DNA of 49,155 nucleotides, from the NCBI GenBank assembly GCA_029262295.1, contig JAJCZR010000076.1, forward strand, positions 1-49,155, written 5' to 3'. The notes below the pieces were generated by a model. The model had not been told where the DNA came from, ran no database searches, and saw only the letters and a list, made by a program, of their open reading frames with translations. Positions 20,403 to 29,419 of this stretch are shown here, piece after piece (positions within the stretch are counted from its first letter, which is position 1; each line of letters begins with the position of its first letter). A program made the position numbers and the translations under genes. Origin of the DNA: Deltaproteobacteria bacterium (GTDB lineage: Bacteria > Desulfobacterota_D > UBA1144 > Nemesobacterales > Nemesobacteraceae).

Positions 20403-21179
20403 CTATTTTTTATAAAACTCGTTTTCCCACTTTTTTTGCCTTTTATCTGCTTCTTTCATAAAATCAGCATCTCTTGCAACTTTGAGTAAAAAGTTATTAA
20501 GAAGATTAAATGGAAATTTTAGTGGCCTCACAAAATCTACGAAAAGAATTGCTCTAAAACCATCAGTATCATTCCATACTTGATGGTTAAAAGTATCATC
20601 AAATACAATACTTTTTCCTTCTTCCCAAAATCTAATATCATTACCTATCCTTATTCTGCACTGTTCCTTGGGTTCAGGAACAATTAGGCCCAAATGGTAT
20701 CTTAAAACTCCGTTATAAGGTCCTCTATGGGGCGGGATATGCTTTCCTGGGGAAAGTATTGAAAAGAATGCTGTTTTAACATTGGGAATTCTTTTCAGAA
20801 TTCGTACAGTTTCAGGACATCTTTTTGCATTTTCAACAGCTTCATAATCATAACCGAGAAGGAAAAAAGTTTTCCAGTCATTATCCTTATTTATATTTTC
20901 AACTTCAGCTATAATATCCTGAAAATTTGGTAGCTCTGTCCTTCTATTCATTACCTCATCTAACTCTTTTCTGATTAACTGCCATTCTGCCTCAACCTCA
21001 CCTACCCAGGGGAAAGTATCACTATCGTATACAGGCACATCTTTATAGACTGAGAACTTGGAATACAGACGTTCAAGTAAATTTACAAAAAAAGATGAAA
21101 CAGGGTTCATATAGCCCTTTTCAGGTATATCTCTTATAGAATAATCCTTATTAGGGTCAAAAATATTACTATCACTCAT
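20403..21179 (-). CDS. Aspartyl/asparaginyl beta-hydroxylase family dioxygenase (LpxO-like candidate)
   Basis: Fe(II)/2-oxoglutarate-dependent hydroxylase of the AspH/LpxO family. The core motifs are PHRGPYNGVLRYHLGL with the first metal His, RFWEEGKSIVFDDTFNHQVW with the second, and GFRAILFVDFVRPL with the Arg that binds 2-oxoglutarate. The N-terminal 150 or so residues hold helices and a VEAEWQLIRKELDEV stretch typical of the family. Bacterial members hydroxylate lipid A or ornithine lipid acyl chains (LpxO, OlsC) or proteins. The start at 21179 (ATGAGTGA) overlaps the stop of the upstream CDP-alcohol transferase by 8 bp, which indicates coupling and supports a lipid substrate by context (inference). 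Confidence 0.85.
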   Translation of the reverse strand: MSDSNIFDPNKDYSIRDIPEKGYMNPVSSFFVNLLERLYSKFSVYKDVPVYDSDTFPWVGEVEAEWQLIRKELDEVMNRRTELPNFQDIIAEVENINKDNDWKTFFLLGYDYEAVENAKRCPETVRILKRIPNVKTAFFSILSPGKHIPPHRGPYNGVLRYHLGLIVPEPKEQCRIRIGNDIRFWEEGKSIVFDDTFNHQVWNDTDGFRAILFVDFVRPLKFPFNLLNNFLLKVARDADFMKEADKRQKKWENEFYKK

Positions 21180-22521
21180 AAATAACTTCCTCATCTCCAG
21201 ATAAAGCTTTTTGTTTGCTCAAATTTTTGATTCTTATTATATCTTCCAATTGATGTATCAAGAAAAAGGTAAGTCCAAGAGTAGTAAAACCAAGTATGAG
21301 TTTATAACTGCCTGTAATAGCCATAATGAGGAAAGCCATTGAATAAATATTTCTTCTTCCAAGTGGCCTTAGAAGTGCAATTGCTTTTCTGAAAAATGTA
21401 AGTTCATCCTTGTTTACATGTTTATCCACTTGAAAATACGCTACAAGACTGCCTGAATCAGTATATTTAATGAGAAAATAAAATGACCATACAAGAAAAA
21501 ATATGAAAACAAAAATGTTATAGGATCCTAGAATTATTGGAACAGTACTTTTTGTTTGTAGATAATATCCAAGGGGCACACCAATTAAAAAAGAAAGCAC
21601 TGTAAACTGATCACTTACGGTATCAACCCATTGACCGTTTTTAGTTTCCATAAGTTTTATTCTTGCCACTTCTCCATCACACCTGTCAAGCACTGTAGCA
21701 GTCTGCATACATAATGCACCAATAATCGGGTACCCCAATGCATAAAATGGGCCGCATAATACACCAATCAGGTTTATTAACACACTTACCATATTTGGCG
21801 TAAGTGGTGTTTTTATTAGATTTTTGCTTAAAGGTAGTGACATTCTTCCATTAATATTTCTTGCAATCCATCCTGTGGCAGTTTTTCCTACATTCGAAAA
21901 TATGATTTTTTCAGCCTCTTTAACCGACTCTTTGCTGTCAGATAAACGAAACCAATAACCGTCCTTTATATTGATCGCTCTAACATTATCATTATCAATT
22001 TGATTATCTAACCACTCATCAAGTTTTAAACTTTTAATAATTTGGGGGATTTCAGAAGAGAGTGCGGCAAAAACCCCTATTGCCTTACCACCTATATTGA
22101 AGTGGTTGGTTACATTTTCTTTTTCAGTATCGGAGCTCACAAGATAATCAGGGGAGTCATCTGTGAGAACAAATGTCTTGTCTGTTTCTGATTTAATCTC
22201 AGAGAAAAACTTTTCAAGCGAATTTGAAGTAATAATTATATTTGATTCGACAATAAGTGCCCTTTTTGATTTAATATCAGGTATCTGACCCACTTTTAAC
22301 CATTCAACAGTTGAGGTAATTCTTTTATCTTTTTCAATTGATCTGATAATTGGGGAACTGGTGTCATCTGACACAATGTGAAAATGTTTTATACCAGCTC
22401 TTTGGGAGTTAATTATTAATCTTTTGAGTTGTGGAACTTCGGCAACAATTTTATTTTGAAAATTATAAAGGTTTTTGCTATTTATACCAATTCCAGAACA
22501 AACAATTAGAGCATGTTCCAT
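21172..22521 (-). CDS. CDP-alcohol phosphatidyltransferase fused to a degenerate nucleotidyltransferase domain
   Basis: 449 residues. The C-terminal membrane half carries the CDP-alcohol phosphatidyltransferase motif: Asp279, Asp282-Gly283, Ala286-Arg287, Gly296, Asp300 and Asp304, all present, with several helices. The N-terminal 210 residues resemble a sugar/inositol-phosphate nucleotidyltransferase (RAGIKHFHIVSDD, GKAIGVFAALSSEI, then YWFRLSDSKESVKEAEKII), but the nucleotide loop GxGxR is absent (LIVCSGIGINSKN). The whole layout recalls the fused IPCT-DIPPS enzymes that make inositol phosphodiesters. An intact nucleotidyltransferase is the next gene upstream, so this N-terminal half may be a scaffold. 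The product would be a phosphodiester-linked lipid or solute; inositol is a guess. Confidence 0.85.
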   Translation of the reverse strand: MEHALIVCSGIGINSKNLYNFQNKIVAEVPQLKRLIINSQRAGIKHFHIVSDDTSSPIIRSIEKDKRITSTVEWLKVGQIPDIKSKRALIVESNIIITSNSLEKFFSEIKSETDKTFVLTDDSPDYLVSSDTEKENVTNHFNIGGKAIGVFAALSSEIPQIIKSLKLDEWLDNQIDNDNVRAINIKDGYWFRLSDSKESVKEAEKIIFSNVGKTATGWIARNINGRMSLPLSKNLIKTPLTPNMVSVLINLIGVLCGPFYALGYPIIGALCMQTATVLDRCDGEVARIKLMETKNGQWVDTVSDQFTVLSFLIGVPLGYYLQTKSTVPIILGSYNIFVFIFFLVWSFYFLIKYTDSGSLVAYFQVDKHVNKDELTFFRKAIALLRPLGRRNIYSMAFLIMAITGSYKLILGFTTLGLTFFLIHQLEDIIRIKNLSKQKALSGDEEVIYE

Positions 22522-22525
22522 AATT

Positions 22526-23302
22526 CTAGTTTGTTGAATCTACAACTCTCAAAAGTCTCGGAGGATGCTTCTTATTCAAGAACTTGTCTGAATCGTACCT
22601 TGCTTTAAAAAGATCACCTGGATAATCAACATCCATCCAGTATAGATCTTCAATATCAAGGGCCTTAATATTATATCCCTTGTTAATCAGTCTGTGGATT
22701 GAAGATATATACCATTTGCCTTCTGCACCGGGTGTTCTCATCTCTTCTTCAATTGCCCTTTTTATAAGTTCAACACCAGTATCCCTGAAAACCCTTATAC
22801 CAACAGATTCTGCAGAAATATTGCTATTGATCCCCTTACTGATTTTTATAACCTTATCACCCTTGGTTATAACTTTCATATCTTCTTCTTCATAGGAAAA
22901 CTTCTTTTTTATCGGAAGACATACTTTTTCATCCATCATGGAAAGGGCTTTATCAAGAACTTCAATCTCAAAAACATCATCGCCATTCATTACAACGATA
23001 TCTTCATCCATCTCACTTCGTGCAATCCAAAGTGATATAAGACTGTTTGTGGTTTGATAGAAAGGGTTGTACAAAGTTTTTATCTTCATCCCAAGTCCAT
23101 CGTAGTTTCTAAGAAAGTTTTCAACTTTCTCGAAACCAAAACCAACCACAATTACAACTTCATTAATACCACAATCCCTTATGTGGTTTATTTGCTTCTC
23201 AAGTATTGTAGAACCGCCAAGATCAAGTAAACATTTTGGGATATATTGGGTATAAGGATATAGTCTACTGCCTCTTCCGGCTGCAAGTATAATAGCTTTC
23301 AT
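22526..23302 (-). CDS. Sugar/inositol/choline-phosphate nucleotidyltransferase
   Basis: Transfers NMP from an NTP to a phosphorylated alcohol or sugar. The signature MKAIILAAGRGSRLYPYTQ with downstream PKCLLDLGGSTILEKQI is intact. Further motifs are GINEVVIVVGFGFEKV, NSLISLWIARSEMDEDIVVMNGDDVF and WMDVDYPGDLF. The NSL-SLW stretch and overall shape resemble LicC- and IPCT-type cytidylyltransferases more than glucose-1-phosphate enzymes. The ATG at 23302 has AGGAG upstream. It lies 4 bp before the CDP-alcohol transferase, so it probably supplies the CDP-activated head group. It is first in the operon, with a strong promoter at 23407-23435. Confidence 0.88.
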   Translation of the reverse strand: MKAIILAAGRGSRLYPYTQYIPKCLLDLGGSTILEKQINHIRDCGINEVVIVVGFGFEKVENFLRNYDGLGMKIKTLYNPFYQTTNSLISLWIARSEMDEDIVVMNGDDVFEIEVLDKALSMMDEKVCLPIKKKFSYEEEDMKVITKGDKVIKISKGINSNISAESVGIRVFRDTGVELIKRAIEEEMRTPGAEGKWYISSIHRLINKGYNIKALDIEDLYWMDVDYPGDLFKARYDSDKFLNKKHPPRLLRVVDSTN

Positions 23303-23406
23303 CAACCAAACTCCTGATAACTTTTACTATAAAAAATTGATCGCCCCTATAATAGAAGTTAAATTTGAGCTGTATTTCATCTAAATCATTAGGTAATTAG
23401 GTTACA

Positions 23407-27607: not shown

Positions 27608-29419
27608 CTAAAATGCCTGTCCGATACTTACAAACACCTGAAGCCTGTTAAGCTCATCAACAGGGTTAAGTGCATAGCCAAGATCAAGTCTTACTGGGCC
27701 AACAATTGTATTGTATCTCACGCCTGTCCCTACTGCATATCTAATATCATCAAATTGATAATCAAAACTTTCTGAATAGACATTTCCATAATCAAAGAAA
27801 AGCACTCCACCTATTTTCTTTACTACTGGAAACCTTGCTTCCAGGTTCCCGACAAGTATTGAATTGCCCCCGAGAGGATCTTCATCATCATCCAGTGGCC
27901 CTAACCTTTGAAAAGGAAAACCCCTCATGCTCGTGCTCCCACCTGCAAAAAACCTTCTGAATACAGGCACTTCAAAGTCCTCTGTGGAAGCAAATGGTTG
28001 TATTGCACCCACTTGAAACCTTTTGGCAAAAACAAGGTTTTTATATTTTTTATAGGTTCTAAATTCAACAATTGATTTAATATAACTTTCATCCGATATT
28101 AACGATGCAAAGGATGACTCAACAAATGCTGATGCAAAAAAACCTTCTGTAGGGTCAACAAAATTATCTGTTGAATCGTAACGAAGTCCACCATTAAAAA
28201 GAAAAAGGGTCACATCTTCCTGACTTGTGACTAAAGGTGTGGAATCTGCTTCAGAGTTGATTTGGGCAAAGATGAGGTTTGTAGCAATATAAGAACTTAA
28301 AAAGCTGTTAATATTCCTTGAAAAACGAAGCTCTGAATCCACACTTTCACCTACAAAACCAGGAAGATCATTTCTTTCCAGGTTCACACTTCCCCTGAGC
28401 TCATTTCCTCTTCCAAGAAAATATGGCTGCCTTAGTACTATCTGCAAGTTTTGGGTAATAAAAGAAACCTTGCTACCTATCTCAAGTGTTCTTGCACCAC
28501 CCAAAAAGTTTCTCTGACTAAAAGACACCTGTCCCCTTACTATATCTTCAGTACCAGCGCCCACACCAAGCCTTACAGTCCGCAGTTTTCTCTCATTAAG
28601 AGTGTATATTGTCTTTACTCTTAGGTTTTCATCATCAAATTCGGTGTCAATTATCACAGATTTAAAAAAACTGAGTTTAAATATGTTTTCCTGTGAATTT
28701 GAAATACCCCTTAAACTAAATTGATCGCCCTCTTTATAAGTGATTTCCCTTGTAATAAGATATAAATCAATATCAGATACTCCCTCAATCACTATTTCAC
28801 CAAAGGTATATTTACTTCCCGGCTCAATCAGGAAAGTGGCTTTTGCCTCTTTCTCTCTCCTGCTTATTGTTGCTTCTGCTTTAACATTTGCATTTGGATA
28901 ACCTTTATTTGCCAGAAATTCACTCACGGCTGTCTTGGATTTTTCGTAATTTACAACAGAGAATATCTCACCCAACTTTATTGGTAAAAGCTTCACAATC
29001 TCACTTTCAATTTCTGCTTCATATCCTTCAGGAATCTGGATAACCAGATCTTTTAATATTATTGGCTCCCTCTCGTCCACAACAATTAAAATTTCAACTG
29101 AAGTTAACTTATCGTTAAACTTGAGTTCATAATCAATGTTAGAACTGTAATAACCGGAACGCTCAAGAAGGTCTTTGATTCTCAGTAAATCATCTTTAAG
29201 GGTCCTTTCATCAAATTCAGGATTCTTTACCCAGGGCTTTATTGAAGGGAATTTAGTGGCCATCGAATTTTTGACCTGCTCAAGGGATAATGCCATTATC
29301 CCTTCTATCTTTATTTTCTTTATTTCAATACTGCTTGTTTCTTCTTCAGCAAAAAGAAAATTTGAAAATGTAAGGTTTGACAATAAAATTAATAAGGCTA
29401 ATTTGAAAAAAATCTTCAT
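27608..29419 (-). CDS. tamA: Omp85-family outer membrane protein, TamA-like
   Basis: 603 residues with a signal peptide (to about residue 24), three POTRA-like repeats (about 30-270) and a C-terminal 16-strand barrel (about 290-603). The Omp85 signature RGF is in STSMRGFPFQRLGPL near 480, followed by GNLEARFPV and VGPVRLDLGYALNP, and the last residues GQAF suit a beta-signal. Three POTRAs and the size agree with TamA, which inserts autotransporters with TamB; BamA has five POTRAs and is about 200 residues longer. TamB is not adjacent. It converges on alaC. Confidence 0.85.
   Translation of the reverse strand: MKIFFKLALLILLSNLTFSNFLFAEEETSSIEIKKIKIEGIMALSLEQVKNSMATKFPSIKPWVKNPEFDERTLKDDLLRIKDLLERSGYYSSNIDYELKFNDKLTSVEILIVVDEREPIILKDLVIQIPEGYEAEIESEIVKLLPIKLGEIFSVVNYEKSKTAVSEFLANKGYPNANVKAEATISRREKEAKATFLIEPGSKYTFGEIVIEGVSDIDLYLITREITYKEGDQFSLRGISNSQENIFKLSFFKSVIIDTEFDDENLRVKTIYTLNERKLRTVRLGVGAGTEDIVRGQVSFSQRNFLGGARTLEIGSKVSFITQNLQIVLRQPYFLGRGNELRGSVNLERNDLPGFVGESVDSELRFSRNINSFLSSYIATNLIFAQINSEADSTPLVTSQEDVTLFLFNGGLRYDSTDNFVDPTEGFFASAFVESSFASLISDESYIKSIVEFRTYKKYKNLVFAKRFQVGAIQPFASTEDFEVPVFRRFFAGGSTSMRGFPFQRLGPLDDDEDPLGGNSILVGNLEARFPVVKKIGGVLFFDYGNVYSESFDYQFDDIRYAVGTGVRYNTIVGPVRLDLGYALNPVDELNRLQVFVSIGQAF

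Follow-up and report, generated by a model that had tools for sequence, protein, structure and literature searches.

Layout and conservation of the gene cluster

The DNA analysed here, referred to as the window, is a stretch of 49,155 nucleotides (contig JAJCZR010000076.1, assembly GCA_029262295.1) from a 2.2-Mb genome of Candidatus Dadabacteria that is 98.8% complete. Its minus strand carries a cluster of three genes, transcribed in the order nucleotidyltransferase (gene 1), cytidine diphosphate (CDP)-alcohol phosphotransferase (gene 2) and hydroxylase (gene 3) (Table 1). The products match the Pfam families NTP_transferase (PF00483, 3e-13), CDP-OH_P_transf (PF01066, 2.4e-8) and Asp_Arg_Hydrox (PF05118, 1.7e-54), each exceeding its curated cut-off. 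The closest named relatives of gene 1, at 73-76% identity, are from metagenome-assembled genomes (MAGs) of Candidatus Dadabacteria. The original prediction, that gene 1 activates a polar head with CDP and that a membrane CDP-alcohol phosphotransferase transfers it, is supported by our analysis, and we consider it very likely that the cluster makes a CDP-activated head group.

The genes are as tightly joined as had been predicted, and the predicted coordinates were right. Genes 1 and 2 are separated by exactly 4 bp (22522-22525). For gene 3, a start at the ATG of position 21179, closely preceded by the sequence GAGGAAG, gives an overlap of 8 bp with gene 2. A start at the alternative ATG at 21194 would give a gene 3 product of 263 amino acids and an overlap of 23 bp, and an upstream TTG at 23305 is a possible alternative start for gene 1. 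Gene calls and Pfam searches identified no HAD hydrolase in the three-gene unit.

Table 1. Coordinates of the three genes and of the domains and motifs in their products (CTP, cytidine triphosphate; CpgD, enzyme of Caulobacter)
Feature	Coordinates	Strand	Basis
Gene 1, CpgD-like CTP:phospho-acid cytidylyltransferase, predicted CTP:phosphoglycerate cytidylyltransferase	22526..23302	-	258 amino acids from ATG; Pfam, model, tree, residues
Gene 1, N106-G107-D108, metal site and predicted glycerate contact (CpgD N110-G111-D112)	22979..22987	-	Invariant in 21/21 Dadabacteria and 11/11 Caulobacterales rows
Gene 1, K196-W197-Y198, with W197 equivalent to CpgD W201	22709..22717	-	W invariant in Dadabacteria, Caulobacterales and Thermodesulfobacteriota rows
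Gene 2, CDP-alcohol phosphotransferase with N-terminal degenerate nucleotidyltransferase-like domain	21172..22521	-	449 amino acids; Pfam, model
Gene 2, N-terminal nucleotidyltransferase-like domain, approximately residues 1-213	21883..22521	-	Catalytic motifs lost; fold Z about 16 to nucleotidyltransferases
Gene 2, CDP-alcohol phosphotransferase signature DRCDGEVAR-x8-GQWVDTVSD, residues 279-304	21610..21687	-	Acidic residues invariant in 13 Dadabacteria sequences
Gene 3, Fe(II)/2-oxoglutarate acyl hydroxylase, AspH/OlsC/LpxO superfamily	20403..21179	-	258 amino acids; PF05118

A survey of cluster conservation, suggested along with the original prediction, covered 60 related genomes, namely 57 Dadabacteria that share the order and class of the window's genome and 3 genomes from outside them. 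Genes 1 and 2 were retained in 54 of the 57 Dadabacteria genomes (gene 2 matches at E <= 2.8e-42), down to family f8 with genomes of 0.8-1.1 Mb. Gene 1 adjoined gene 2 in every neighbourhood read, mostly within a conserved panB-panC-panD, mtnA and dksA-like setting, and the three genomes with no strong gene 2 match (G030, G039 and G042) are drafts, two of them <80% complete. Gene 3 was present in 22/57 genomes, next to gene 2 in 21 of these 22, and absent from the smaller-genome genus g2 and from family f8. The three-gene cluster is not due to chance and, given these frequencies and the losses in g2 and f8, genes 1 and 2 constitute its core and gene 3 an accessory part that was lost in many relatives. 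Among viral contigs there were six pattern matches, none of them a relative.

Copies of the gene 1 type were also seen apart from a recognisable transferase in two Dadabacteria MAGs (L040:6001-6783 and L039:6001-6783). A gene of the asparagine synthase family is located two genes beyond the copy in L040. The L040 chromosome and G010 appear to be one assembly, and G010 also has a copy beside the transferase.

Gene 1 and the CpgD-type cytidylyltransferases

The predicted model of gene 1 (predicted local distance difference test, pLDDT, of 90) matched PntC (6pd2, Z 30.8), LicC (1jyl, Z 27.9) and IPCT (4jd0, Z 26.9) in the PDB, enzymes that share the CTP-dependent reaction but differ in substrate. 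For the sorting of substrates, homologues from many phyla were compared by genomic context. Two kinds of clusters contained distant homologues, one with transaminase-like enzymes for 2-aminoethylphosphonate (AEP; PhnW/AepZ) in Thalassolituus and Nitrospira, the other with HisC/CobD-like pyridoxal phosphate (PLP) enzymes in Prevotella and relatives, many with a neighbour of the LPG_synthase_TM family. The amine is held by E104 and E196 in PntC and by the equivalent D105 and D192 in LicC (PMC6697681). In the alignment, position 106 is D in all 13 AEP-transaminase-linked and all 21 HisC/CobD-linked homologues, and position 199, equivalent to PntC E196, is E or D in all relatives of both kinds. 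These acids are not kept in the Dadabacteria, which have N106 and I, V or A at 199, and an amine substrate is therefore unlikely. Position 106 also separates gene 1 from four rows of the DIPPS type, which have M.

Outside the Dadabacteria, the closest relatives with the NGD and W[YF] pattern belong to the Thermodesulfobacteriota and the Caulobacterales. This is where CpgD of Caulobacter (CCNA_01210/CC_1152) comes in, which was shown biochemically to be a CTP:phosphoglycerate cytidylyltransferase that prefers D-2-phosphoglycerate (PMC12275187). In the CpgD structures, glycerate is contacted by N90, N110, M147, K161 and a water-bridged S170, with W201 at the metal water, and the catalytic and glycerate contacts are listed as R16, K26, N110, G111, D112, M147, K161, S170 and W201 (PMC13228409). 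We mapped these residues through close Caulobacterales homologues, one of which (L158) has an N-terminus nearly identical to that of CpgD as read from a primer in PMC12275187; the C. crescentus sequence itself was not in the alignment. The listed contacts correspond to R13, K23, N106, G107, D108, M142, K156, S166 and W197 of gene 1, all of them invariant in 21/21 Dadabacteria rows, including the active-site residues R13, K23 and D108 (CpgD R16, K26 and D112).

A maximum-likelihood tree of 98 nucleotidyltransferases placed the Dadabacteria, the CpgD-type Caulobacterales and the Thermodesulfobacteriota in one group with support values of 97/79, which is moderate and obtained under a single model, and of 99/95 one node deeper, where two further rows join. 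The group was apart from the AEP-transaminase-linked, HisC/CobD-linked and DIPPS enzymes. Gene 1 hence resembles CpgD in the clade of its Caulobacterales homologues, in fold class, in the catalytic residues and in most CTP and glycerate contacts. Both also work with a CDP-alcohol transferase partner. In the CpgD clusters this partner is CpgA (CCNA_01217/CC_1159), a predicted CDP-alcohol phosphotransferase whose substrate is presumed to be CDP-glycerate (PMC11324152), and the logic by which gene 1 feeds gene 2 is for this reason that of CpgD and CpgA. A locus in the Thermodesulfobacteriaceae contained a CpgD-like gene with LptF/LptG-type genes, a metallophosphatase, a CDP-alcohol transferase, a GNAT gene and a lipid kinase of the DAGK family, which follows the transferase. 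Gene 1 differs from CpgD in directly sharing an operon with its transferase, and no lipid kinase or LptF/G-type gene was seen among the genes next to it.

Transferase, hydroxylase and membrane setting

The model of gene 2 (mean pLDDT 82) comprises a front domain and six helices of transmembrane (TM) length within residues 242-440, and the CDP-alcohol phosphotransferase signature is complete. The model superposes over its full length, with about 330-370 residues matched, on AF2299 of Archaeoglobus (4q7c, Z 25.4) and on IPCT-DIPPS (4mnd, Z 25.3), so that the predicted IPCT-DIPPS-like layout was borne out for the architecture, a nucleotidyltransferase-like front domain on a six-TM CDP-alcohol phosphotransferase. 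The score against the IPCT-DIPPS family NF041135 was 85 bits and did not reach the cut-off of 580. The description of the transferase as fused holds in that the front domain is there, but the nucleotidyltransferase motifs AAGxGxR, PK and GD were not found in it in an alignment of 19 homologues. Judging from the sequence, the front domain is probably not a second active cytidylyltransferase; with its motifs lost, that role falls to the separate gene 1, which belongs to another subfamily than the Archaeoglobus enzymes and for which inositol specificity is unsupported. Some Dadabacteria hold a separate bifunctional enzyme resembling IPCT-DIPPS (L133:3815-5131, L134:5039-6352, L135:4977-6305 and L136:2163-3506), the first of which scored 284 bits against NF041135, also below the cut-off. 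These genomes may make di-inositol phosphate in addition.

In gene 3, the residues H151, R160, H162, H199 and R209 are invariant in 8 homologues and align with AspH; gene 3 encodes an intact dioxygenase of the AspH superfamily. The prediction of a hydroxylase of the OlsC/LpxO class stands, although for an accessory gene. Like the ornithine-lipid 2-hydroxylase OlsC and the lipid A 2-hydroxylase LpxO, gene 3 keeps the residues for iron and 2-oxoglutarate, and its NCBIfam scores are nearer to OlsC (307 bits, cut-off 450) than to LpxO (140 bits, cut-off 500), and below both cut-offs. Lipid A was set back as its substrate since LpxC, in contrast to the setting of LpxO, was found in none of the 57 Dadabacteria genomes. 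Ornithine lipid was set back since a strong match to PF13444 (OlsB type) is lacking in the window's genome and, counting it, in 12 of the 22 genomes that bear the hydroxylase. Nine of the hydroxylase-bearing genomes, including that of the window, have neither a ceramide synthase homologue nor a strong OlsB-type match, and there gene 3 is therefore argued to act on a glycerolipid.

Similar partners were found in other phyla. On the Pseudomonas plasmid pPNP1 (L210), a hydroxylase 52% identical to gene 3, a CpgA-like transferase 44% identical to a Caulobacterales CpgA homologue and a CpgD-like gene are direct neighbours, in a sphingolipid cluster that also has genes of the serine palmitoyltransferase (SPT) type and for an acyl carrier protein, a fatty acyl-AMP ligase, an epimerase, an acylglycerol kinase and LptF/G. 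One Caulobacterales locus has, in a row, a hydroxylase, a CpgD-like gene, a HAD hydrolase and a CDP-alcohol transferase fusion. The three-part combination thus recurs across phyla. The original prediction knew of no described pathway with this combination, which was right insofar as the Dadabacteria transferase is of a different lineage and no ceramide synthase homologue was found in the window's genome, and wrong insofar as the three gene types do occur together in a sphingolipid cluster of the Caulobacter kind. In Caulobacter itself, another enzyme, CC_0202, is credited with hydroxylating the amide-linked acyl chain of these lipids (PMC11324152). Plasmid-borne sphingolipid clusters of this type were seen on Diaphorobacter pDCB2 (L205) as well as on pPNP1, one of the plasmids being typed as conjugative IncP, and they are possibly mobile lipid-modification cassettes.

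Omp85 was found in 57/57 Dadabacteria genomes, and together with the failure to find LpxC in any of them this suggests that the Dadabacteria are outer-membrane bacteria that lack lipid A. The window itself encodes a second protein of the Omp85 family near the cluster (27608-29419, minus strand, a frame of 603 amino acids). The only PF01066 proteins found in the window's genome (G000) are PssA (L128:5254-6072), a phosphatidylinositol phosphate (PIP) synthase (L129:4680-5366) and gene 2. Phosphatidylglycerophosphate synthase (PgsA) was not among them, so the usual route to phosphatidylglycerol may be missing in this genome; one f8 genome examined has PgsA.

The SPT-type matches in the window's genome are BioF and a fusion with a PilZ domain. 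The latter (L198:4446-6083, G000:C47) combines an acyltransferase of the AONS family with a PilZ-like domain (TIGR02266) and adjoins a large sensor histidine kinase. In families f3 and f5, a frame of about 820-950 codons joins an SPT-like domain (AONS) to a homologue of the GNAT protein that is encoded next to CpgD-type genes (L196:352-3105 in G026:C18, and G015, G020, G021, G025, G033, G034, G039 and G042). The GNAT homologue is likely a bacterial ceramide synthase, and the frame apparently a fused ceramide-synthesis enzyme.

Head group, acceptor and rival products

The gene identities, operon layout, conservation and catalytic motifs, as well as the placement of gene 1 in the CpgD clade and its residue match, are computational results. 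The explanation that fits them best, which we hold with moderate confidence, is that CDP-glycerate is made and its phosphoglycerate placed on a lipid, to give an anionic lipid with an optional acyl hydroxylation. Gene 1 would form CDP-glycerate, with release of pyrophosphate, from CTP and a small phosphorylated acid, which is most likely 2- or 3-phosphoglycerate. At the inner membrane, gene 2 would displace cytidine monophosphate and move the phosphoglycerate onto a hydroxyl of a membrane lipid, its front domain probably being a structural or docking module. Where present, gene 3 would add a hydroxyl to an acyl chain, at C-2 by analogy, of that lipid or of another membrane lipid. We infer the exact substrate, the lipid acceptor, the site of hydroxylation and an anionic role in an outer membrane without lipid A.

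Several observations weigh against this explanation. The glycerate contact N90 of CpgD is Ser87 in all Dadabacteria rows; the glycerate pocket is therefore not identical, and gene 1 is called CpgD-like, not CpgD. M142, K156 and S166 are frequent in the HisC-linked enzymes too and not diagnostic alone, gene 1 is only 33-38% identical to the nearest CpgD-type enzymes, and Caulobacterales homologues stand in for CpgD itself in the tree. Gene 2 was rejected as an orthologue of CpgA (22% identity over 204 amino acids, E 3e-4 in BLAST; only 140 columns aligned by hhalign), and in the transferase tree it nests near myxobacterial sequences on a branch other than that of CpgA. The two are alike in being CDP-alcohol phosphotransferases with CDP-glycerate as predicted donor, but the similarity is remote, the N-terminal part is another one and the signature reads DTVDGKLAR in the CpgA homologues versus DRCDGEVAR in gene 2. 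Six-TM CDP-alcohol transferases of known substrate mostly take soluble acceptors (PMC4634129), which makes a soluble product possible. Finally, the likeness to Caulobacter is limited by the failure to find a ceramide synthase homologue in the window's genome, in g2 or in f8.

The last point also bears on the idea that the products of the cluster are the ceramide phosphoglycerate lipids known from Caulobacter. The CpgD type of gene 1 and the AONS-GNAT frames in at least nine f3/f5 genomes speak for it, but genus g2 and family f8, each with a single SPT-type match (BioF where tested), have nevertheless kept genes 1 and 2. Since the two genes persist where no ceramide synthase was found, ceramide is unlikely to be the general acceptor and, with no such homologue in the window's genome and no CpgA orthologue in gene 2, we regard these particular lipids as very unlikely products. 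The simplest guess for the acceptor of the phosphoglycerate head is a glycerophospholipid. It is less improbable, but still unlikely, that another phosphorylated acid, a polyol or an amide is activated and ends up in a soluble compound or a surface polymer instead of a lipid. This would agree with the soluble acceptors of related transferases and with the Ser at CpgD N90, and the clade neighbours L047 and L050 adjoin asparagine-synthase-like genes, which might fit a phosphoglutamine cytidylyltransferase such as Cj1416 (mentioned in PMC12275187). However, L047 and L050 lack W197, the operon has no glycan genes, and a lipid acyl hydroxylase and lipid-cluster genes are associated with it repeatedly.

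The remaining candidates concern inositol and amine heads. An inositol head would follow from the likeness to IPCT-DIPPS drawn in the original prediction: gene 1 would make CDP-inositol, and gene 2 either phosphatidylinositol from diacylglycerol or a di-inositol phosphate, as in IPCT-DIPPS. The fold of gene 2 agrees with this, inositol-1-phosphate synthase was found in 54/57 Dadabacteria genomes, and a similar gene set was proposed for phosphatidylinositol in Bacteroidetes, namely Bacteroides vulgatus (Heaver et al., PMC9246714). That alternative inositol-lipid cluster lies near the inositol-1-phosphate synthase and includes a HAD hydrolase (Heaver et al. 2022, PMC9246714). It shares with ours a LicC-like NTP transferase and a CDP-alcohol transferase, but the Bacteroidales and Prevotella loci seen carry a HisC/CobD-like PLP enzyme and another residue pattern. 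In the window's genome, by contrast, the synthase is located beside rplM-rpsI on another contig, and the PIP synthase is a separate protein of 228 amino acids (145 bits to archaetidylinositol phosphate synthase, 118 bits to PIPSynth), so that inositol is accounted for without this cluster. As no HAD hydrolase was found in the operon and gene 1 is not of the IPCT type, with N106 instead of M and the DIPPS rows elsewhere in the tree, the inositol head was not upheld and is decidedly improbable. For a Kennedy-type or phosphonolipid pathway, gene 1 would be a phosphoethanolamine, AEP or phosphocholine cytidylyltransferase, consistent with PntC as its top structural match and with the AEP transaminase-like (PhnW/AepZ) or HisC/CobD-like enzymes in the distant clusters. 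We consider this most improbable since the amine-holding acids are replaced, PssA and Psd already serve phosphatidylethanolamine in the window's genome, the operon has no aminotransferase, and full-length matches to the phosphoenolpyruvate mutase family are patchy in the Dadabacteria.

Phosphoglycerate on a lipid is thus the reading we retain, and the product is probably an acidic phosphoglycerate lipid related to the one that lets Caulobacter live without lipopolysaccharide. There, ceramide-diphosphoglycerate (CPG2) is made from a sphingolipid cluster (PMC11324152, PMC12275187), a pathway from which the Dadabacteria cluster departs in three respects: its transferase is of another lineage, the N90 position differs and ceramide is likely absent. 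More tentatively, and with doubt prevailing, the whole phylum may use a CpgD-derived phosphoglycerate head on a glycerolipid, placed by a transferase unrelated to CpgA and accompanied by an acyl hydroxylase, as the permanent anionic lipid of its outer membrane, substituting for lipopolysaccharide. If so, the Caulobacter sphingolipid would be one case of a more widespread CDP-glycerate lipid chemistry, which would not be a peculiarity of proteobacterial sphingolipids but core to a phylum apparently without lipid A. An OlsC-type hydroxylase would be linked to a new lipid substrate, and the NGD/KW pattern of the CpgD type would provide a genetic handle to predict phosphoglycerate lipids in uncultured bacteria. 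It would also suggest what replaces lipopolysaccharide in the Dadabacteria.

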